From Helicobacteraceae bacterium (lineage in GTDB: Bacteria > Campylobacterota > Campylobacteria > Campylobacterales > SZUA-545), in assembly GCA_031275395.1 (NCBI GenBank), contig JAISOU010000095.1, positions 1 to 40,923 on the forward strand: a stretch of 40,923 bases of DNA, in the 5' to 3' direction. Positions 3,195 through 31,311 of this stretch are shown piece by piece. The notes beneath the pieces were generated by a model. The model was not told the DNA's origin. It did no database searches and saw only the letters and a list, made by a program, of their open reading frames with translations. A program made the position numbers and the translations under genes. Numbering within the stretch: position 1 is the first letter of the stretch; each line of letters starts with the position of its first letter.

Positions 3195-5453
3195 GTGAGC
3201 GTAAATCAAGCGGCGATCGCCGCTCATATAAGGGCGTGGTTGCCAACGGCAATTGCGGCGATCATATTAGGCGTTAGCGATAGCGCAATACGCAAAGGCA
3301 TTATTAGACGATCCAATCGCTACGCGTGGCGGGAAGCCAACGGCGGGCTTCGCGGCGGTAAAAGCGGGAAAACGTACGAAATTTTAACCGAACTTCCGCC
3401 TGACTGCTACGACGAGCTTTGCGTCCAATACGGGCGCGAATTTGAAATCGAAACGACGGAGGAAACCAATGAAGGAAATAAGCGCGGACGAAGCGTCCTC
3501 GGCGAAAGTCGGCAGGATCATCGATCGCCAACGGGAAATAATAGGGTTGAAATACGCCCGCTACGCGGAGGAATGGGCGAAAAAGAAGGGCTGGGATCCC
3601 AAAGACTTAACGGAACCGCAACTAAACGAATTACTACGCTCCTTTGCGCTCAGAGAAAACAGATCGATCAACGCTCAAGTACTGACGCTGAGCGTCCGGT
3701 CGGGTATCTGCAAAGCCATCCTAGAGCGCGCGGGCGAAACCAAAACGAAGCCGAAGGAATAATAGATGACGCAGATGGAGTGGTCAAAAATACAAGCGGC
3801 GCTGAAATTGCAATCCAATCCGTTTTAACGCAAACCCTGTCGGCGCTACCGCCGCTTGAGCTAAGAGACGGCAAACCGACGGAAAACGACAAAGCCGCAT
3901 TGGTCGAAAGCTACGAAACGCTAAAGCGCGAGGGTAGGACGCTTAAAACCATACTCGGCATGTTTGCCTATCGCTACGGCTTAACGATACGCAAATCGAC
4001 GCTATACGATTGGCGGACGCGCTTTGCGGACGGCGGGCTTAAAACCTTAGTCGATCGCAGAGGCGGAAACCGCAAAAACATAGACGACGAGTGCCTCGCC
4101 GCCGCCCTAAAAAATAGCGCGGGGGCGCATTACACAACCGCGCTTAAAGAGTACAAGCTCGCGCTCCGCGTTAAATATGAGGACAACCCAAAAGCGCTTA
4201 CCGCTATCGCGCCTATTACGCAAAGCGGCTTTAACCGCGCCGCCAAACGCCTAATCAAAGAGGGCGGGGTCGTCTCGCTCTTACTTAGAGGCGGCAAGGA
4301 TAGAGCGGTGCGCGAGCTTAGCCCCTCCGTTCCCCGCGAAAAGGTAGCGCGAGGCTACGAGTATCAGATGGACGCGACTAAGCTGGATTACGCCGTTGTT
4401 AAGACGATCAGGGTATGGGACGATACGCTTAACAGACTGACCGAAACTACAAAGGTTACAAGGGCGACGATGATCGTAATAGTCGATCACTACTCCTCCC
4501 GCTTTGTCGCGGGCTTATACGATAGCCCTAACTCATACGCCAACGTCCGTCTCCTTAAAAAAGCGATCCTGACTATGGGAGCGCCGAGAATACTGCGGAT
4601 GGACAACGGCTCGGATTACAAATCCAAACACTTCCAAGACGCCGTTCGCGAGTTGGGCATTATAGCGCAGTTTGGACGCAAGTATCGCGGCGACGATAAA
4701 GGGACGGTCGAGCGGATCAACAAGACCATACAGGATTACGCTGAGGATCGACCGGGCTACTTAGGGCATAACCTAACGCAACGCGAGCTACGCGAAAAGA
4801 TGGCGTGCTACAAGTCCGAAAGGTTAAGCGGCGCGGCGACCAACATTAAAAACCTGATGACGTGGGAGCAGTTTGACGCGCAGATCGACATTATAACGGA
4901 CGAGATTTGCGCCAATAACGGCTATATCGCGGCGTGGGAGCAGGCGCCGGGTGAAATCAAGATTATTCCGGAGGAGGATATTAACCGCGCGCTTGGCAAA
5001 CGCTACGAGCGCAGGTTTGGCAAGCAGGGCGTAACCGTAGACAAACTCTACTATCAAAGCCTCGACGCAAGACTGGCGGCTTACAGGGGTCAAATGGTCG
5101 AAGTCGTCGAAGATATAGACGACGTTAGAAGAGTCTGGTTATACGACCTCAAAACCAAAGAGCATATCGGGACGGCTACTAACGCCAAGCTCTTAGGATA
5201 TACCAAAGAGGAAAAGCGAGCGATCGAGCGCGCAATCGATAAAGCCGCGAAAGCCAAAATCAGAGGCGTGGAGCGGCTAGGCGAGCAGATCGACGGCTTA
5301 AAGCCTTACGTCAAACAAGCCAACGCCCTGCTCGAACAGCGCAAGCGCGAGGCTACGATGAAAAAAGAGCAAGAAGCGCCAATCGAGGCGGCGAACGCCT
5401 CGATCGACAGGCTTACCGAGCGAATGCTTAAACTTGAGCGCAAAATAGGCTGA
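3195..5453 (+). CDS. MuA-type DD(35)E transposase
   Basis: A 752-residue frame from GTG (AAGGAGG upstream) encodes the DNA-cutting and strand-transfer enzyme of the element. Residues about 12-80 are a Mu-type DNA-binding domain (GLRGGKSGKTYEI, ELPPD). Residues about 225-300 are a second helical DNA-binding region. The integrase core has Asp393 (YQMDATK), Asp470 (RMDNGSDY) and Glu506 (GTVERINKT), an exact 35-residue spacing. Residues about 590-690 match the Mu transposase C-terminal barrel, followed by a coiled-coil tail. Two oddities: residues about 92-195 are Arg/Ser/Gly-rich and look like the shadow of another gene in the +1 frame (3469-3762). Also, dropping one G near 5448-5450 would extend the coiled coil with AEHEAELINEVITLVKAP. 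So the frame may be fused or damaged. The family call is certain; activity is not. Confidence 0.88.
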   Translation: MSVNQAAIAAHIRAWLPTAIAAIILGVSDSAIRKGIIRRSNRYAWREANGGLRGGKSGKTYEILTELPPDCYDELCVQYGREFEIETTEETNEGNKRGRSVLGESRQDHRSPTGNNRVEIRPLRGGMGEKEGLGSQRLNGTATKRITTLLCAQRKQIDQRSSTDAERPVGYLQSHPRARGRNQNEAEGIIDDADGVVKNTSGAEIAIQSVLTQTLSALPPLELRDGKPTENDKAALVESYETLKREGRTLKTILGMFAYRYGLTIRKSTLYDWRTRFADGGLKTLVDRRGGNRKNIDDECLAAALKNSAGAHYTTALKEYKLALRVKYEDNPKALTAIAPITQSGFNRAAKRLIKEGGVVSLLLRGGKDRAVRELSPSVPREKVARGYEYQMDATKLDYAVVKTIRVWDDTLNRLTETTKVTRATMIVIVDHYSSRFVAGLYDSPNSYANVRLLKKAILTMGAPRILRMDNGSDYKSKHFQDAVRELGIIAQFGRKYRGDDKGTVERINKTIQDYAEDRPGYLGHNLTQRELREKMACYKSERLSGAATNIKNLMTWEQFDAQIDIITDEICANNGYIAAWEQAPGEIKIIPEEDINRALGKRYERRFGKQGVTVDKLYYQSLDARLAAYRGQMVEVVEDIDDVRRVWLYDLKTKEHIGTATNAKLLGYTKEEKRAIERAIDKAAKAKIRGVERLGEQIDGLKPYVKQANALLEQRKREATMKKEQEAPIEAANASIDRLTERMLKLERKIG
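3469..3762 (+). CDS. 97-residue ORF nested in the transposase reading frame, function unknown
   Basis: An ATG at 3469 sits six bases after GGAGG, lying in the +1 frame of the transposase. The product is an ordinary soluble, charged, helical protein (IIDRQREIIGLKYARYAEEW, DLTEPQLNELLRSF). The overlapping part of the transposase frame looks like a shadow instead. It ends in tandem TAA TAG, followed directly by ATG 3766 with its own GAAGGA. I suspect the original order was three genes (DNA-binding protein, this gene, catalytic transposase) with ATGA-style overlaps, now read through because of small indels. A true dual-coding overlap is the alternative. I do not recognise the family. Confidence 0.6.
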   Translation: MKEISADEASSAKVGRIIDRQREIIGLKYARYAEEWAKKKGWDPKDLTEPQLNELLRSFALRENRSINAQVLTLSVRSGICKAILERAGETKTKPKE

Positions 5454-6488: not shown

Positions 6489-6923
6489 ATGTTTGAGTTT
6501 TTTACGGCGCAGGCGCTAAGCGCCCGCGATTTTGACAACGCGGAGACGCAGTGGGCTTACGAGGGCTTGCTTGCAAAACAAGCTATAACGACAATCTACG
6601 CCAAAAGCGGCACGGGTAAGAGCTATCTTGCTCTAGCCATAACGGGCGCAATCGCCGCCAATATGCGTATGGCGGGCTATGTCGACTATGAAAACCGAGT
6701 CGGCGAATTGGAGCGTCGCGGCGTTAATAGGCTGATTGCCGCCAACCCGCAGTTTTTTTACCTCCATAAAACCAAAATGCGAACGGGTCGGCACGACCTC
6801 TTAAGCGAGATGGCAAAACTCGCCAAAAGCGGCTATTACAGAGACGCGCTAATCGTGCTTGACGGCGCGAAACACTTTGTACGCGACGTACAAAACGATC
6901 GGCAGGCGCGCGAAATGATCTGA
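6489..6923 (+). CDS. truncated RepA/RecA-like ATPase, 3' end lost at a junction
   Basis: A 144-residue frame starts nine bases after the MuB-like gene. The Walker A motif is AKSGTGKS (about 38-45), and a Walker B-like strand is ALIVLDGAKHF (about 119-129). This matches AAA_25 / RepA-type phage ATPases, which normally run on for another 100 or more residues (including a histidine-containing sensor strand) after this point. Here the frame stops about seven codons after the helix RQAREM. That is where the sequence turns into the antisense end of another transposase. I infer a truncated and probably non-functional protein. Confidence 0.7.
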   Translation: MFEFFTAQALSARDFDNAETQWAYEGLLAKQAITTIYAKSGTGKSYLALAITGAIAANMRMAGYVDYENRVGELERRGVNRLIAANPQFFYLHKTKMRTGRHDLLSEMAKLAKSGYYRDALIVLDGAKHFVRDVQNDRQAREMI

Positions 6924-6924
6924 T

Positions 6925-7840
6925 TCCCTCTTTGCCTACCATTCGCGTCGCCGATTCGCCAAGTAGCAGATCGAGCGTTCTTTCATTTTCGATCGTCTTT
7001 GGCGGCGCCGGCGTTTTAGCCCATTTTTCAAGCGGCGAGAGCGACATATTTTTGCCGCTATGTATGCGGGTTTCGTATATCTGCGCGACCCAAGCGTCGA
7101 TGATCTGCTGGAGTTGTTCGGCGGAGTATTTAACCTCTATGATCTGCCCGTCGTTTTCTTTGGCGATCCATATTTTTTTGGCTTCCTCTTTTCCTAGCTT
7201 TTGTTCGGCTCTCCATTTTTCGATCGATTTTTGCCGATCTTCGTAACTCTTACGGGATTTAATCGCCATTTTTTCGGCTACGCTATGTCCGGAGTAGCCG
7301 CTCAGCTCCTCGAACATTTCGGAGAGCGTCCTAAACGATCGCTCTATATGCGGTTTTAAGTCGCCGCTAAACGGCGCGACGATCTTTTGGTCTATACCCA
7401 GATGCAGGCAGATCGAGTTGAAATGATTGCTTGTGTAATCGCGCCCGTTGTCGATCACGACTTGCTCGGGAACGCCCAGCCGCAAGATCGCCTTACGCAA
7501 CAACCTCGCGATAGCGTAGGAGTTTGATTTTTCTTCTACGCTATAGACTACGCGGCGGCTATACACGTCGATCGCGCCCAAGATCATATATCGCTTGCCG
7601 TCGGCGCACAGCAGATCCGCCGGAGTGCCGTCCAACTCCCAGATCATATTCGCGTATTTGGCGGCTTCGCTCATTCGCCGTATGCGGGTAAAAACGAGCT
7701 TTTGGCTTTGTCCGGATTATCGGCGAAGGCGATCAGTTGCGGTTGTTCTCGTTCGAGCGCTCGCCAAAGCCTAGAGATCGCGTATTGGCTCGGAGCTTCG
7801 TTCGGGTATCTGTGTTGCAGCGATTTGGCGAGGGATTTAA
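6925..7840 (-). pseudogene. remnant of a second Mu-type DD(35)E transposase, opposite orientation
   Basis: Reading leftward from about 7840, the protein shows typical mid-to-C-terminal Mu-like transposase sequence: LIAFADNPDKAKSSFLPAYG, then IWELDGTPADLL (first Asp), VVIDNGRDYTSNHF (second Asp) and KPHIERSFRTLSEM (Glu), with the second Asp and the Glu 36 positions apart (D-35-E). The frame breaks near 7671-7676 (GGCGAATGAGC), and one extra base would rejoin it. Both ends are missing. At the left it stops after MVGKEGI, where the truncated ATPase begins. At the right it runs into the polyvalent gene. It differs clearly from the 3195-5453 transposase, so it comes from another element. Confidence 0.75.
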
Positions 7841-10493
7841 CCCGCAGACGCATTTTATTCCGCGAGGCGGTTACGAAGGAATGCCGCTTGTCGATCGCGC
7901 GGGAAACGTGGCGATCGGCAATCACAGGGCGCAGGCGATTAAAACGATGAGCGACGAACAGTATCGCGGCTATATCGAGGGTATGCGCGACGACTTTCCG
8001 GAGGCGTTTAGAGAATATGAGAAGCTCGCCTCTTTCGATCCGTTAAAAGCGGAGTATTTTACGCAAGAGGGCAAGCTCGACGTCAAGGCTTTCAAGAACG
8101 ACGCCGCGCCGTTTAGGGAGCTTGATTTCACGATAGAAAACTTTCGCAAAGAGTTTCCGGACAATAAAACCCAAACGCCGATCGGCGAGGTTTATATTCA
8201 CGATTCGCAATACAACAAAATGGGCGCGCAAGATCGCAATCGAGAAGCTTTCTTTGGACTGATAAAACCCACGCTGAATAGTCCGTTGTTTATCGTTGAG
8301 AAGGGCGGGACGAAACACTTCATCAAGCCTTTCGTTAAAGACGACGGGCGGATTATATTCCATTCGGTAGCGAAAAAGAACGATGAAGGCGGAATATATA
8401 TCGCCTCGAACTATCCGATCAGAGAGGGATACGCAAAAGGGATTTTTAGGGACGGGGAAATCATTTACGCGCACGCGCGGCGACTTACAAAATCCAGCGC
8501 CCATTCACGCATGCGCGACGAAATTATACCAAATATTGAACCCAAAAACCAGCGTTTAATGGTCGTTAGGGTTTTGGACGCGAACGAGGATACGCTTAAA
8601 CGCATAGCCAAACTTAGCAACGAAGGCAGATTGTTTGGCGAAAAAGAGAAAATCATCGCCAACGAAGCCAAATACTCGGAGAAGCTAAACAAACTATTTG
8701 ACCCAGAGCGCGGCGTTAATTTTATCGAAAGCGAAACCGAATTAAAGAACAGATTGGGCGCGGCGGAAGAGACGCAGGCTAATCAGGCGATGATCGGGCG
8801 GCTAAACGACGCGACGCCGAACGCAATCGATCGGTATATGCGCGAGAACTCCGACGACGTCGGGACCAAAATGATGATCTATCGAAACGCTTACGCCTTT
8901 TATAACTTGCGGCAGGCGGCGAACAACTTCGATAACGCCGCGATCGATCTAAACGTAATACTGCCGCGCTCGCTCGATCGAATGAGAATCGCGGGGAAAA
9001 ACGCAAAACAGAACGCCGAAGCGTTAGCCGCAGACTATATCGAAAGACTGACGAAATACGGCGGTAGAGACGTAGAGGGCGACCTTGTAACGGCGAACGA
9101 TCTTAGCGCGGATATTTTAGGGTTGGCGATTAGGCGTTTTAGGGCGATGAAGGACGAAGGCGTCGTCGAATTAGGTCGGCGTATCGACGATCTGATAATC
9201 AAAGCGAAAGAGCAGCGACAACCTAGTCTATTTGAGGGCGAGATCGCGCCTATGGACAGAATAGACGCGGCGTTAGAAATATACGGCGAGAGAAACAGCG
9301 CCGCTTTGCAGGAGGCGGCGCGATTAATCAGGGAGCTGGACGCGGCGCGAAACGCGGCGAAAAGTCAAGCGCCGCAAACGCCAAGAGTCGATCGAGCCGA
9401 AAGAGTAAAAGACGATTTAGCCGCTCTCGATCCCGCCGCGCTAACAGACGAGCAGAAACTGGTTAGAGAGGTTTATCTGGGAAATCAACCCGAAACGCTG
9501 TTGAGGGGTAAAGACGAAAGCGATTTGATAACCTTTTTCGCGGGGTCAAAAAAATCGGGCGCAAGAAAAATCTTATTGCGGCACGGCGGCATTGAGGCTA
9601 AAGGCGGGCTAACGCCGCAAGAACTATTGGAGATAGGCGACGTAATCAGGAACGGCAAATTAGCGGGCGATAGTTTTACCCAAGCGGGCGATAGCGTTCG
9701 CTACGCGTATAATCTAACTCGCGACGGCGTTAATTTTAGAGTAGTAATCGAAGAAACGAACAACGGTAAAAAAGCGTTTGATTTATACAGCGACAGAAAC
9801 ACAATAAAAACGGAAGAGCCGAAACAAACATCCCGCCCCTCTTCCGCAACCGAAACTATACCGCAAAACGCGGCGAAAAGTCAAGAAAGCGCCCCGTCGT
9901 TACGCGCAGCCGCCGAAGCGAAAGTCGCCAATACGGAGCGATTGATCGCGGAAGGCGATTATGAAACGACGCGAGCCGATCTAAACAACGCCCGCAGAGA
10001 GTTAGAGGCGCTAACGCCCGAAGATAAGCAAGCGTTAGCGACTCGCGCCCAAATGCGAAACTATATCGAGCGGGGATACGAGCCTTTTATGTCGCGGGTT
10101 ATCGACGAGCGATCGACGACCGAGCGATCGACGACGAAGCTGGACGACGGGCGAGTCGTCCGCGACGAGGAAGCGCGGGCGATAGCCAAAGAGGCGCTGG
10201 ACGAAATCGACGAGACGCGCTCGCTCGTTTCCGATTACGCGGAGATAGAGCGAGCGGCGACGGACGCTAACGGCGCGATAGATTCGGCTATCGACGGATT
10301 TAGCTTGCGCAACGAGGGCGACGCCACGCTAGTCAAACCGCCGATTATGCGCGCGGACATTACCGCCGCGCAAGAGAAGATCGCTCAAAAATACGGCGGC
10401 GTATGGAACGCCAAAACTAAAGAGTTCGCGTTCTACAGCCGCGAAAACGCGAGCAAGTTTATAACGGAGTTTGCCGCCGATTGCGGCATATAA
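7737..10493 (+). CDS. large phage polyvalent protein: ParB-like domain with two BECR-type nuclease-like modules (5'-truncated)
   Basis: The open frame is 918 residues. The first 34 or so are antisense to the transposase remnant, so the true protein is cut at its N-terminus near 7840. Residues about 35-95 resemble the DdrB-like ParB domain (MPLVDRAGNVAIGNHRAQAI). The expected second half of that fold appears only after residue 260 (RLMVVRVLDANEDTLKRIAK, SNEG). In between (about 146-250) is a module like the phage barnase-EndoU-ColicinE5/D-RelE (PBECR) nucleases. A second module of that general type occupies about 605-690 (KILLRHGG, LTPQELLEIGDVI, NFRVVIEETNNGK). The C-terminus has a short WNAKTKEFAFYS element. 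Such proteins are usually injected with phage DNA. Domain names are from memory of the families, not from a search. Confidence 0.65.
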   Translation: MRLFSFERSPKPRDRVLARSFVRVSVLQRFGEGFNPQTHFIPRGGYEGMPLVDRAGNVAIGNHRAQAIKTMSDEQYRGYIEGMRDDFPEAFREYEKLASFDPLKAEYFTQEGKLDVKAFKNDAAPFRELDFTIENFRKEFPDNKTQTPIGEVYIHDSQYNKMGAQDRNREAFFGLIKPTLNSPLFIVEKGGTKHFIKPFVKDDGRIIFHSVAKKNDEGGIYIASNYPIREGYAKGIFRDGEIIYAHARRLTKSSAHSRMRDEIIPNIEPKNQRLMVVRVLDANEDTLKRIAKLSNEGRLFGEKEKIIANEAKYSEKLNKLFDPERGVNFIESETELKNRLGAAEETQANQAMIGRLNDATPNAIDRYMRENSDDVGTKMMIYRNAYAFYNLRQAANNFDNAAIDLNVILPRSLDRMRIAGKNAKQNAEALAADYIERLTKYGGRDVEGDLVTANDLSADILGLAIRRFRAMKDEGVVELGRRIDDLIIKAKEQRQPSLFEGEIAPMDRIDAALEIYGERNSAALQEAARLIRELDAARNAAKSQAPQTPRVDRAERVKDDLAALDPAALTDEQKLVREVYLGNQPETLLRGKDESDLITFFAGSKKSGARKILLRHGGIEAKGGLTPQELLEIGDVIRNGKLAGDSFTQAGDSVRYAYNLTRDGVNFRVVIEETNNGKKAFDLYSDRNTIKTEEPKQTSRPSSATETIPQNAAKSQESAPSLRAAAEAKVANTERLIAEGDYETTRADLNNARRELEALTPEDKQALATRAQMRNYIERGYEPFMSRVIDERSTTERSTTKLDDGRVVRDEEARAIAKEALDEIDETRSLVSDYAEIERAATDANGAIDSAIDGFSLRNEGDATLVKPPIMRADITAAQEKIAQKYGGVWNAKTKEFAFYSRENASKFITEFAADCGI

Positions 10494-10502
10494 GGACACG
10501 CA

Positions 10503-12635
10503 ATGAATTGTAATACCTTCGCGCCGATTAAAGCGCTTAACGATTTGTGGGATAACGGCATAGATCTACTATTTGATAAAGTCCTCGACGGCATAGAATG
10601 GGTTGATCGTAAAGCGGGAGGACGGATTCCGCTAGTCTTGGGCAAAGAGGTTAGAGAACTTGCTGGGACCGATAGGGTTTTTAAGATCGCGCGAGATAAT
10701 ATATTTAACGACGCGGCGGCGTTACGCGGAAACCTAGCTAGACTTGGCGACGATAATAAACGCGATCTGACGCGCGCGCTTGGCGGCGATATAGACCCCG
10801 CCGATCTTAGCGACGCGATAAAACCGCTATATCATAGATTGCGCGCGGCGATCGATAAAAACGCCGACGATTTAATAGCTTTGGGCGCGTTAAATGAAAA
10901 GTATCGCGTTCAGGACTATGTGAAACGATATTACGAACAATATAAAGAACGAACGAGCGCGGCGCGAAGCTATCTTTTGGGTAAATATTTTCAGCGCAAA
11001 GATATGACGCTGGACGAACGGTTGGCGTTGGGGCAGATAGAGGACGCGTCGTTTGTCGTGCCGCAGACGATTTTAGAGCAGCAGTTGCAAATACAGAAAG
11101 CCGCCGCGCTTAAAGCCTTCGCCGATAGATTTTCGTCCGATCAACCCAAAGACGGCTTTGTCCGCGTTCCTAGCGACACGGTTGGCGGGGGCGTTAAGAA
11201 ATATGGCGCGTTAGCGGGCAGATATATCGACGAAAGAGCGTTTCGGTATATCAAGGAAGCGTCGCATTTACGCGCGGAGCTAAACGGCATTGAAAACGCG
11301 TGGCTCGAAGTGGTCGATCATTTGAAGGTTAATCTTACGATTAAAAATCCGGGGACGCACCTTTATAACGTTTTGTCGAATTTGCAGTTGGCGTTTTTAC
11401 ACGGCGACTACGCCGCGCTTGGCAAACTGCTGGTCAAAGCGACGACGGATAAAGCCGAGTTTGACGATCTGGTTAAACTCGCAAACCGCAACGGCATAAA
11501 TACTTACTTGAACGAATTAGACCCGCGATCGATAGATATCGACCCGCAAACCGCGCAGCCGAGTCTTTGGAAATCGTTTTTGAAAAATGTATATATGACT
11601 AAGGGAAGCGCGACGGGCGAGTTTGCGCGGCGTATTTACGACTGGGAAGATAAGTTTTTCAAGGTCGCGCGGTTTGGCGATAAGATAGACGAGGCAAAAG
11701 AGAGGCTTGGGCGAGAGCTAACAAACGAGGAAATCCGCGATATTGCGCTGGAGGCAAACGATGCCTACGTCGATTACGACAAGCCGATGACTCCGTTTGC
11801 CCGCGCGATTGATAAGAACGGGATTTTTCCGTTCTTGAACTATACCTATAAATCTACGCCGATGGTCGCGCGGATGATTTTCAAACATCCGCTTAGATTC
11901 GCCGTTTTGCAGTTTGGGCTTTCGGCGATTGGCGGCAGTATGTTATTTAACGACGACGATGATTTGGCGCGTCCGGATTGGGCGGGGGACAAATGGAATC
12001 TGTTTGGCGCGAAAAACTATATACCAATCGGCAACGGCGCGTATCTTAACTTGGGACGAGCGTTGCCGGGTCTTAAGTTCGCCGCGCCAGAGTTTGGCGG
12101 ATTTGTAACGGGCATAAGCCATATAGCGAGCGGACAATCTACGCGCGGATACGATTTAAGCGGCAAATACGACGACGCGATCGACCGAGCGACTAATATA
12201 ATGTTGGAGGCAAGCCGCAATTATTTGCCGTCGATGACTTTGGGCAGATACGCGCAAGGCGCGGTCAAGATCGCGGCGGGCGCTGAGTTGAAAGAAAACG
12301 AGCCTAAAAGTATGGGGTGGTTGGCTGCGCGCGCGCTTGGCATACGAGAGTTTAATCCCGCGCGCGAAATACAGCGAAACTTGAACTCGGCGAAAAACAA
12401 ATTACGCGAAGACGAAGAGGACTATAAAAACGATCGAACGCGCCTGTTGGCGGCGCGCGCCGAATATGCCGCTAAAATCAAAAAAATCGAGGAACACGCG
12501 GCGGCGGCTGGGGTGAAGATGGACGCGAACGGGCGCGCGATTGGCGGCTCGGCGAAAAAGGAGAGCGACGAGAGCTTTAGCGCGGCGACGAAAAAGCCCG
12601 TCGTATTTAAGCGGTTTAATCCGCTTAAAGATTAG
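10503..12635 (+). CDS. phage large polyvalent protein, LPD38-like C-terminal part
   Basis: A 710-residue protein follows nine bases after the previous gene and surely belongs with it. It starts with ATG (weak AAGGACACGCA upstream). It is mainly helical: about 1-330 charged helices, then a region with short hydrophobic helices (FPFLNYTYKSTPMVARMIF, AVLQFGLSAIGGSMLF) around residues 440-480, and a Lys/Ala/Glu coiled-coil tail (about 630-680). The middle and C-terminal parts are like the large polyvalent-protein domain LPD38 found at the ends of multi-domain proteins of phages and mobile elements. The probable role is a virion-carried or internal structural / DNA-ejection protein. No capsid, portal or tail gene accompanies it, so its present function is doubtful. 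Confidence 0.65.
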   Translation: MNCNTFAPIKALNDLWDNGIDLLFDKVLDGIEWVDRKAGGRIPLVLGKEVRELAGTDRVFKIARDNIFNDAAALRGNLARLGDDNKRDLTRALGGDIDPADLSDAIKPLYHRLRAAIDKNADDLIALGALNEKYRVQDYVKRYYEQYKERTSAARSYLLGKYFQRKDMTLDERLALGQIEDASFVVPQTILEQQLQIQKAAALKAFADRFSSDQPKDGFVRVPSDTVGGGVKKYGALAGRYIDERAFRYIKEASHLRAELNGIENAWLEVVDHLKVNLTIKNPGTHLYNVLSNLQLAFLHGDYAALGKLLVKATTDKAEFDDLVKLANRNGINTYLNELDPRSIDIDPQTAQPSLWKSFLKNVYMTKGSATGEFARRIYDWEDKFFKVARFGDKIDEAKERLGRELTNEEIRDIALEANDAYVDYDKPMTPFARAIDKNGIFPFLNYTYKSTPMVARMIFKHPLRFAVLQFGLSAIGGSMLFNDDDDLARPDWAGDKWNLFGAKNYIPIGNGAYLNLGRALPGLKFAAPEFGGFVTGISHIASGQSTRGYDLSGKYDDAIDRATNIMLEASRNYLPSMTLGRYAQGAVKIAAGAELKENEPKSMGWLAARALGIREFNPAREIQRNLNSAKNKLREDEEDYKNDRTRLLAARAEYAAKIKKIEEHAAAAGVKMDANGRAIGGSAKKESDESFSAATKKPVVFKRFNPLKD
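12606..12629. terminator. perfect 9-bp hairpin at the 3' end of the polyvalent operon
   Basis: TTTAAGCGG (12606-12614) and CCGCTTAAA (12621-12629) surround a 6-base loop, inside the last codons of the gene. No T-run follows, so it may be a factor-assisted terminator or 3'-end protecting hairpin. It sits between convergent transcripts. Confidence 0.4.
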
Positions 12636-12666: not shown

Positions 12667-12900
12667 TTAAATCCGATCCGCTTCGTCGCAAGGCGCGTCG
12701 GGAACTTTCGCCAGCGCTTGCGCAAACGCCTTTTTAGAGCCTCTTTCGGCGCGATTAAGCAGATAGGTTTCCGTGTCTATCGCCGCAATCTTTTCGGCGA
12801 GCGCGGAAGCGATTAGCTGATTGATTGACGCGCCCTCGCGCTTCGATAACTCACGCGCGGCGCGGTGTAACGAGTTTGGCAAACGTAAACTAAGCGTCAT
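12667..12900 (-). CDS. ribbon-helix-helix antitoxin of the PIN module
   Basis: A 77-residue protein. Residues 1-40 give the strand and helices of an Arc/CopG-like ribbon-helix-helix (MTLSLRLPNSLHRAARELSK, then ASINQLIASALAEKI). The C-terminal part is a basic/hydrophobic tail of the kind that wraps a toxin. It overlaps the 3' end of the PIN gene by 11 bases and has its own strong AAGGA six bases before ATG. It would bind the PIN toxin and autoregulate the pair. Its partner is transcribed first, the reverse of the common antitoxin-first order. Confidence 0.8.
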   Translation of the reverse strand: MTLSLRLPNSLHRAARELSKREGASINQLIASALAEKIAAIDTETYLLNRAERGSKKAFAQALAKVPDAPCDEADRI

Positions 12901-13324
12901 TATCTATCCTTTTTAGGTAATCTTGCGGGCGAATAACTTCAACGCCGAAGCGTTCGGCTTGGCGAAAATCCTTTGCGTTGAACGTAACTATACTTTTAGC
13001 GTTCGCGGCGACGGCAAGCTCCAAAACCAAGTCGTCTTTTGGGTCGCTTAAAATGGGTCGCCACAAATAGTAAATTTTCTGTTTATGCGCGACTTGACAA
13101 ACATAATCCAAAATCGCGTCGATATCCGCGTCGCTTAAGGCTTTGTTGGGATACGATCGCTTTGCCGCGTCTTCGTATTCTAAAACTAGCGGCGTTGAAA
13201 CGGCGATTTCAAATTTGCCCGACGGCAATAGGCTAAAAAGCCGAAACGACGCGCCGTTTCGCGATCGCGTAGCCGAGACAAGGACGTTGGTGTCGATAAC
13301 GATCCGATCGGGCTTGTTTATCAT
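12890..13324 (-). CDS. PIN-domain ribonuclease toxin (type II toxin-antitoxin)
   Basis: A 144-residue single-domain PIN protein of the type often annotated as a toxin component of the PIN family. The expected acidic residues are visible: Asp11 (VIDTNVLVSA), Glu49 (PLVLEYED), Asp97/Asp98 (SDPKDDLVLELA) and Asp119 (FNAKDF). These bind Mg2+/Mn2+ to cleave RNA. The ATG at 13324 has no ribosome binding site, and a minus-strand TATAAT (13336-13331) ends only seven bases away, so the mRNA may be leaderless. It is followed by the RHH antitoxin. It could be cargo or a stabiliser of the adjacent element. Confidence 0.85.
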   Translation of the reverse strand: MINKPDRIVIDTNVLVSATRSRNGASFRLFSLLPSGKFEIAVSTPLVLEYEDAAKRSYPNKALSDADIDAILDYVCQVAHKQKIYYLWRPILSDPKDDLVLELAVAANAKSIVTFNAKDFRQAERFGVEVIRPQDYLKRIDNDA

Positions 13325-29497: not shown

Positions 29498-31311
29498 AGC
29501 CGATCAAAGAGCAAACCCTAGCCGAATTAAACGAAACCTGTAGTTTGATTCGAGCGCGCATTATCGACGTCGTGAGCCGAAACGGCGGGCATTTAACTAG
29601 CTCGCTCGGCGCGGTGGAGTTGATTGTCGCTATGCACCGCGTCTTTGATTCGTCTAGCGACCCGTTTATCTTCGACGTTTCTCACCAAGCCTACGCGCAT
29701 AAACTTTTAACCGATCGTTGGGACTCCTTTGAAACGCTCCGCTCTTTTGGCGGCGTTAGCGGATTTACAAAACCCAGCGAAAGCTCGTTCGATTATTTCG
29801 CGGCGGGACATAGCTCCACAAGCGTCAGTTTGTCCGTAGGCGCGGCGAAGGCGATCGCGCTGAAAAACGAAAAACGGACGCCCGTAGCGCTGATAGGCGA
29901 CGGCGCTTTAAGCGCGGGAATGGTTTATGAAGCGATGAACGAGCTAGGCGATCGCAAATATCCGATCGTCATAGTGATCAACGATAACGAGATGAGCATA
30001 GCAAAGCCGATCGGCGCGATTAGCCTTTCGCTCTCTAGGGCGATCGCCGCGCCTTGGTTTCAAAAGCTCAAATCGATGATCGATAGCGCGATTGGCGGCA
30101 ACGAAACCTTTCAATACTTGGCGAAGCGTTTTGAGGAGAGTTTGCGGCTGATCACGCCGGGCATCTTATTTGAAGAGTTGGGTTTGGATTACATCGGCCC
30201 CGTTAACGGACACGATCTAAGCTCTTTAATCCCCGTTTTAACCCGCGCCAAAGAGATGAAAAAGCCCGTCGTCGTCCATACCCGCACGATCAAGGGCAAA
30301 GGCTACGACATCGCGCAGGGCAAAGAGGAGCGTTGGCACGGCGTAGGTCCCTTTGACAAAGAGAGCGGCAAAGCGCTAAAAAGCGGCGGCGATAAGAGCG
30401 CTACGGAGATTTTTTCGCGAGCGCTTTTGGAGCTTGCCCGCAAGGACGAAACAATCGCGGGCGTTACCGCCGCAATGCCAAACGGAACGGGACTAGACAA
30501 ACTCATCGACGAGTTTCCGGAGCGCTTTTGGGACGTGGCGATCGCCGAACAACATGCCGTAACTAGTTGCGCGGCGTTGGCAAAGGAGGGCTTTAAGCCT
30601 TTTTGCGCGATCTACTCGACGTTTCTGCAACGCGGATTCGATCAAATTATTCACGACGCGGCGATTAGCGCTATGCCCGTAATTTTCGCTATCGATCGCG
30701 CCGGTATCGTCGGCGAGGACGGCGCGACTCATCAAGGCGCGTTTGACGTAGGCTTTTTGCGCCTGATCCCAAATATGGTAGTTTTCGCTCCTAGGGACGA
30801 GGCGAGCCTGATCGACGCGGTTAGTTTCGCCGCCAATCTTGGCAAACCGTGCGCTTTTCGCTACCCGCGAGGATCGTTTGAGCCGCACAAGATCGCGCCG
30901 TTTGAACCGTTCAAATTGGGCAGAGCGCAATGGCTAAAACGCGGCGTAAATCTACTGCTGATCGGCTACGGAAACGGCGCGGCAAAAGCGCTGGCGGCGA
31001 GCGAGATTTTGCTAAAAAACGGACTTAAAGCGGGCGTTTTGGATCTGCGTTTCGTTAAGCCGATCGATAAAGAGGCGTTAAAGATCGCCGCGGAAAGTTA
31101 CAATCGCTTTGCCGTTATTAGCGATTCTTCCATAACGGGCGGCGTTAGCTCCGCGATTGTCGAAGCGCTGATCGAGATTGGCTCTTTATCGGTTAAAATA
31201 GAGCGTTTTGAACTGCCGGACATTTTTTTGCCTCACGGAGACACGAGGCGCGTGGAGGAAAGTTTGAATCTAAACGTAGAGCGGATCGCGCATAAGCTGT
31301 TAAATGGCTAA
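29494..31311 (+). CDS. dxs: 1-deoxy-D-xylulose-5-phosphate synthase
   Basis: A 605-residue thiamine-diphosphate enzyme joining pyruvate and glyceraldehyde 3-phosphate into DXP, the entry to the MEP isoprenoid route and to thiamine and pyridoxal. Landmarks: GGHLTSSLGAVEL, DVSHQAYAHKLLTDR, the ThDP/Mg motif GDGALSAGM...NDN (about 135-165), AEQHAVT, DRAGIVGEDGATHQGAFDV and FRYPRG. It starts with GTG, overlapping fliH (GTGA). Full length. Confidence 0.97.
   Translation: MKPIKEQTLAELNETCSLIRARIIDVVSRNGGHLTSSLGAVELIVAMHRVFDSSSDPFIFDVSHQAYAHKLLTDRWDSFETLRSFGGVSGFTKPSESSFDYFAAGHSSTSVSLSVGAAKAIALKNEKRTPVALIGDGALSAGMVYEAMNELGDRKYPIVIVINDNEMSIAKPIGAISLSLSRAIAAPWFQKLKSMIDSAIGGNETFQYLAKRFEESLRLITPGILFEELGLDYIGPVNGHDLSSLIPVLTRAKEMKKPVVVHTRTIKGKGYDIAQGKEERWHGVGPFDKESGKALKSGGDKSATEIFSRALLELARKDETIAGVTAAMPNGTGLDKLIDEFPERFWDVAIAEQHAVTSCAALAKEGFKPFCAIYSTFLQRGFDQIIHDAAISAMPVIFAIDRAGIVGEDGATHQGAFDVGFLRLIPNMVVFAPRDEASLIDAVSFAANLGKPCAFRYPRGSFEPHKIAPFEPFKLGRAQWLKRGVNLLLIGYGNGAAKALAASEILLKNGLKAGVLDLRFVKPIDKEALKIAAESYNRFAVISDSSITGGVSSAIVEALIEIGSLSVKIERFELPDIFLPHGDTRRVEESLNLNVERIAHKLLNG

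Follow-up and report, generated by a model that had tools for sequence, protein, structure and literature searches.

Polyvalent proteins of the jhp1044 type in Helicobacter combine PBECR nuclease domains with a DdrB-like ParB domain and are highly mosaic, as many as 50 combinations of domains having been reported (Iyer et al. 2017, PMC5512222). The words "inserted" and "insertion" are absent from the text of that paper, and its passages on these proteins describe no shared nucleotide tag. The gene described here lies in a window of 40,923 nucleotides, the whole stretch of DNA analysed, from a Helicobacteraceae bacterium. It resembles the jhp1044 type in joining PBECR modules and a DdrB-like ParB domain in one large phage protein and in its strong mosaicism. 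It differs in having an insertion within the ParB domain, which goes unmentioned for the jhp1044 type in that text, and a nucleotide tag. Judged by comparison with relatives, a domain has truly been inserted, in frame, into this prophage gene, which is truncated and encodes a known kind of polyvalent protein. The preliminary description had proposed that the arrangement as a whole might be undescribed; going by the 2017 text, its novelty is confined to the placement of the insert within the ParB fold, since the combination of PBECR with DdrB-ParB and its mosaicism were already reported there (PMC5512222).

Results

A truncated polyvalent gene in a prophage remnant

An uninterrupted open frame of 933 amino acids extends from 7692 to 10490 of the window. 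Homology to polyvalent genes begins only at about 7828, the start that had earlier been placed at 7836, and we delimit the gene, whose 5' part is gone, as 7836..10493 (plus strand). Its relatives are prophage proteins of 1700–2500 amino acids with several dissimilar effector domains in one large protein, which bears out its description as a polyvalent phage protein, the window copy being truncated. No ParB sequence was found upstream of about 7828. The first 33 or so residues of the open frame were considered as a divergent ParB start and rejected, as they are the antisense of a transposase. A frameshifted Mu-type transposase remnant (6727..7841, minus strand) abuts and truncates the polyvalent gene; its two frame-shifted parts match adjoining stretches of a single 716 amino acid frame on contig C40. 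Because the window comes from a draft contig, a misassembly at the 7828–7841 junction is conceivable. The gene is truncated where the antisense transposase begins, and a functional ParB domain is therefore unlikely to be made from the window copy. The earlier suggestion of two cutting activities directed at the host or at rival elements finds no support for this 5'-truncated copy, which is probably a remnant.

The polyvalent gene is surrounded by an S24 repressor and MuA- and MuB-like proteins, whose predicted identities mark the neighbourhood as a rearranged Mu-like prophage remnant. A full-length Mu-type transposase is also present at 3195–5453, the frameshifted remnant being a second one. 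An AAA_25/RepA-like ORF at 6489–6923 (plus strand) looks cut short (phrog_6357 is matched over 141 of 321 positions), and a PIN-domain protein adjoins the remnant at 12890–13324 (minus strand). Directly downstream of the polyvalent gene is a separate ORF of 710 amino acids (10503..12635, plus strand), which by eye resembles the C-terminal region of the intact proteins L039 and L040. Between the window and the same-genus genome G006, pN is 0.13 and pS is 0.76 over 8632..9345, and the ParB parts likewise have low pN against pS, as expected under purifying selection. These ratios suggest that the remaining coding sequence was selected in the past.

A PBECR2 module inside the ddrB-ParB domain

Pfam identifies ddrB-ParB (PF18763) at residues 10–82 of the open frame (E-value 2.1e-7; 31.5 bits, above the curated cut-off of 27.6). 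The N-side part (7836..8020, plus strand) is recognized by PF18763, by alignments A1 and A8, and by blastn to locus L030. It keeps the active-site arginine (GNHR) and the extra tyrosine helix before the last strand (QYRGY), both GNHR and the tyrosine being invariant in A1 and A8. With homology starting only at about 7828, the window copy is without the first 50 or so residues of the domain, including the N-terminal strand and the QFR region, and a complete alpha+beta ParB fold is not present. The C-side part (RLMVVRVL...KLSNEGR; 8553..8631, plus strand) is followed by the helical region that usually comes after ddrB-ParB (8632..9345, plus strand; 76% identical to G006). In seven relatives (L030, L031, L079, L080, and L089–L091) the C-side part adjoins the N-side part directly.

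Between the two parts lies an insert (8021..8550, plus strand), absent from relatives, that consists of a PBECR2-type nuclease module and a degenerate 3' tag. The Pfam match to PBECR2 (PF18810) covers residues 144–244, approximately 8166–8468 (E-value 9e-7; 29.6 bits, above the curated cut-off of 27.1). The catalytic pair of this family is an H (or R) in the first helix and an S or T in a late strand; the R is invariant in alignments A4 and A9, and the S is kept in IASNYP.

Same-genus homologues have no counterpart of residues 104–270 (approximately), and their ParB domain is continuous. In G006 (contig C25), residues 21–103 are matched at 29881–30129 and residues 271–542 at 30127–30942, abutting within one 2533 amino acid frame; in G003 (contig C61), the matches to residues 23–93 and 272–553 are 12 nucleotides apart. 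In L031, the Pfam ddrB-ParB match runs unbroken over residues 1283–1395 (profile positions 5–119 of 121) and includes the strand equivalent to RLMVVRV. At the DNA level (blastn), window positions 7828–8020 and 8551–9319 match L030, where the spacer is 26 nucleotides as against 530 in the window, the insert taking the place of those 26. A continuous ddrB-ParB domain is also found in intact Helicobacter and Campylobacter phage proteins. Thus the PBECR2 module is a genuine insertion of approximately 530 nucleotides, located in the loop that leads from the helix with the tyrosine to the last ParB strand (RLMVVRV); the length of this loop already varies among relatives. A ParB-like domain split by a PBECR-type module had been read from the sequence beforehand; both Pfam families and these insert-free homologues agree with it. 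Unlike the usual placement of such modules in series, this PBECR2 module sits inside another domain.

The PBECR2 module also occurs alone, at the end of another phage gene in the same genome (contig C86; 49% identity to the insert). In the sister genome G001 (L033, 9346–10737), a PBECR1 module (PF18809) occupies the same ParB loop, so that one loop has accepted two unrelated BECR families, the second insertion being independent. L033 also has a damaged ParB start, and the insertion within ParB is therefore seen in two fragments, each with a damaged ParB start. An intact protein carrying an insert in ParB was not found among the homologues searched, including a class-wide PF18763 survey with matches in 40 of 397 genomes, mostly of near-complete profile length and with nearly every domain uninterrupted, whose doubtful matches were inspected individually where they could be retrieved. 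A single-protein search found no close relatives in plasmids, viral contigs, or genome_contigs.

The AlphaFold model of the insert (10 sequences) has a helix at 65–80 followed by strands (core pLDDT 74–82; overall 56.8), and that of ParB plus insert is of low confidence (pTM 0.39). Foldseek comparison of the predicted models with the PDB gave no significant match (for the insert, none at E ≤ 0.001). With no decisive fold match from either program, it is Pfam and residue patterns that place the insert in the BECR fold. A joint alignment of PBECR2 and ParB rows as one fold failed, and a profile comparison of PBECR2 with an HxxxHG-type BECR-like module yielded nothing.

PBECR2-type domains also occur fused to the N-terminus of type I specificity (HsdS-like) proteins in two Campylobacterales genomes (L038, 6897–8816; L037, 1562–3745; both minus strand). 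Pfam finds both domains in L038 and neither in L037, where the PBECR2 part shows up when aligned with the window insert. The gene next to each fusion encodes HSDR_N and N6 methylase domains, and a restriction system with an RNase-like part is possible.

A second module flanked by direct repeats

Farther downstream is a DUF3519-type (PBECR-like) module (9570..9800, plus strand). The Pfam match (PF12033; residues 646–718, E-value 7e-4) scores 20.4–23.1 bits, below the cut-off of 27.5, and six of the eight members of its alignment match DUF3519 (best E-value 7.1e-7). The histidine of RHGG and the pattern Y-S-x-R-N (YSDRN in its conserved form) are present here and in most relatives, and correspond to the helix H and strand S of BECR nucleases. 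Comparison with HxxxHG-type BECR-like modules by hhalign gave an E-value of 0.0019 with a probability of only 14. The putative BECR assignment of this module thus rests on a residue pattern and a weak profile match. Within that limit, the second BECR-like module of the preliminary description is recovered, and candidate catalytic residues are present in both modules.

Direct repeats of 24 nucleotides (23 of 24 identical) flank the DUF3519 module. The left one (9346..9369, plus strand) equals the 3' half of the tag described below; the right one (9862–9885) is contained in a full 3' tag, GAAACTATACCGCAAAACGCGGCGAAAAGTCAAG (9852..9885, plus strand; peptide ETIPQNAAKSQ). Just behind this tag begins a block (9894..10111, plus strand) that shares 98.2% identity with a different polyvalent gene in the same genome (contig C41), whereas the next matching stretch is 71% identical.

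A conserved nucleotide tag at module ends

In polyvalent genes of the Campylobacterales, a conserved tag, AAYTMTACCRCAA...AAGTCAAG, often closes the BECR modules; it is readable in two frames, as ETIPQ or as NSTTN. At the 3' end of the PBECR2 insert it takes the form GAAATTATACC (8520..8530, plus strand; peptide DEIIP); no tag was found at the insert's 5' boundary. Behind most modules of several BECR families in the window's genus stands the peptide (D/T/S)E(T/I)IP, which hardly varies there, and the nucleotides under ETIP are conserved as well (GAAACTATACC...AAAAGTCAAG). The threonine codon in the listed ETIP sites is ACT, one remnant excepted; ACT makes up 12% of threonine codons in these genes. 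In Helicobacter and Campylobacter, the core TACCACAA stands at module ends in the other frame (AAT TCT ACC ACA AAC, NSTTN).

TACCRCAA occurs within 300 nucleotides downstream of 48 of 158 modules. The opposite strand of these stretches has 0 and the interior of the modules 3; the exact tag core is absent from the majority of module ends. Non-redundant tails are split almost evenly between the two phases (21 and 22); frameshifted remnants account for a few of them, and the intact gene L089 has both phases. Across 119 Helicobacter-family genomes, AATYCTACCACAAA is found 98 times and its reversed pattern 5 times. Most of 30 sampled loci lie behind a module or a recognizable module remnant, often with a stop codon directly after the tag. 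That the tag is conserved irrespective of reading frame points to a role at the nucleic-acid level. Finally, in 86 polyvalent gene fragments, 167 homology starts fall at tags, compared with 40±17 in 200 shuffles, an enrichment that can partly be due to the conservation of the tag itself.

At L169, L185, L189, L191, L193, L195, and L197–L199, a stop codon directly after the tag closes a module remnant; several of these are short orphan fragments in Helicobacter genomes, and such remnants could be a store of silent cassettes. In a non-exhaustive search of parts of the literature on jhp1044/HP1116 and DUF3519, we found no mention of the tag.

Discussion

We consider it probable that the open frame is what is left of a gene for a polyvalent protein (injected, multi-domain) of a Mu-like prophage, and that exchangeable cassettes account for the gene, its insert, and its tag together. 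BECR nuclease modules would be the cassettes, each ending 3' in the short conserved tag. A PBECR2 cassette would have entered, in frame, the surface loop that links the last helix of ParB to its last strand, and a DUF3519 cassette would have been joined farther down through recombination in the tag, the tag serving as recombination homology. In an intact ancestor the modules may have been RNases delivered with the phage DNA; the window copy is presumably no longer fully functional. The recombination reading draws on the 24-nucleotide repeats, the 98.2% block behind the tag, the homology starts at tags, and published mosaicism; in H. pylori prophages, as one report describes, homologous recombination often breaks the DUF3519 gene (PMC11321410). 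As the insert has no tag at its 5' boundary, recombination between tags does not by itself explain the insertion into ParB.

The conservation of the tag invites two other explanations. If (D/T/S)E(T/I)IP were a peptide signal, such as a site at which a protease would release the modules once injected, its near constancy within the window's genus would be accounted for, and processing of polyvalent proteins has been predicted (Iyer et al. 2017, PMC5512222). However, Helicobacter reads the same nucleotides as NSTTN, one gene contains both frames, and the ETIP threonines are almost all ACT despite the low usage of that codon; we rejected the tail as a peptide motif on account of the two frames and regard a peptide signal as very improbable. 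Alternatively, the tag could be an element that acts as RNA or in regulation, such as a site of self-cleavage by the encoded RNase or a promoter inside the gene; nucleotide-level conservation directly 3' of nuclease modules would fit this. Yet no excess of RNA structure was found at the tag (mean z −0.12, RNA parameters), which led us to reject a hairpin; no regulatory context is known, and the flanking direct repeats agree better with recombination. Such an element is unlikely, if less so than a peptide signal.

Another view takes the protein as a functional fusion effector, with the ParB halves packed around the nuclease, a nucleotide- or DNA-binding ParB regulating it, and translation from an internal start. 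The frame is open over more than 900 codons, the ParB parts are under purifying selection, the insertion sits in a loop between secondary-structure elements, and the same loop was used twice with different modules. Against this, antisense transposase sequence stands where the N-terminal ParB part should be, L033 as the second case also has a damaged ParB start, no intact insert-bearing protein was found, and the joint AlphaFold model has the low pTM given above. We think it quite unlikely that the window copy is such an effector. On the exchange of cassettes, the simplest reading of the tag is a module-boundary sequence that would help exchange. A more far-reaching version, which is conceivable though we lean against it, makes the tag a dedicated recombination site at which a phage or host recombinase swaps BECR cassettes into and out of polyvalent genes in frame throughout the Campylobacterales, the ParB loop insertions being one outcome of this intragenic system.

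Mosaic phages have short conserved boundary sequences at module borders. The tag may be likened to these in being short, conserved, and placed at module borders, and differs in that it lies inside a single coding frame, marks the 3' side of nuclease modules, and occurs in two reading frames. By analogy, the cassettes also recall integron attC gene cassettes, in which a coding part carries a 3' site and the inserted unit is flanked by parts of the site; in contrast to attC, the tag has no structure excess under RNA parameters, and the cassettes lie within an ORF.

Phage effector proteins may thus be re-armed by nuclease modules that move as units, even into another folded domain. The tag is the part of the finding most worth following: it is a handle for finding cassettes by DNA search, and, being shared, it makes the mosaicism of Helicobacter and Campylobacter polyvalent proteins, so far unexplained, directly testable.
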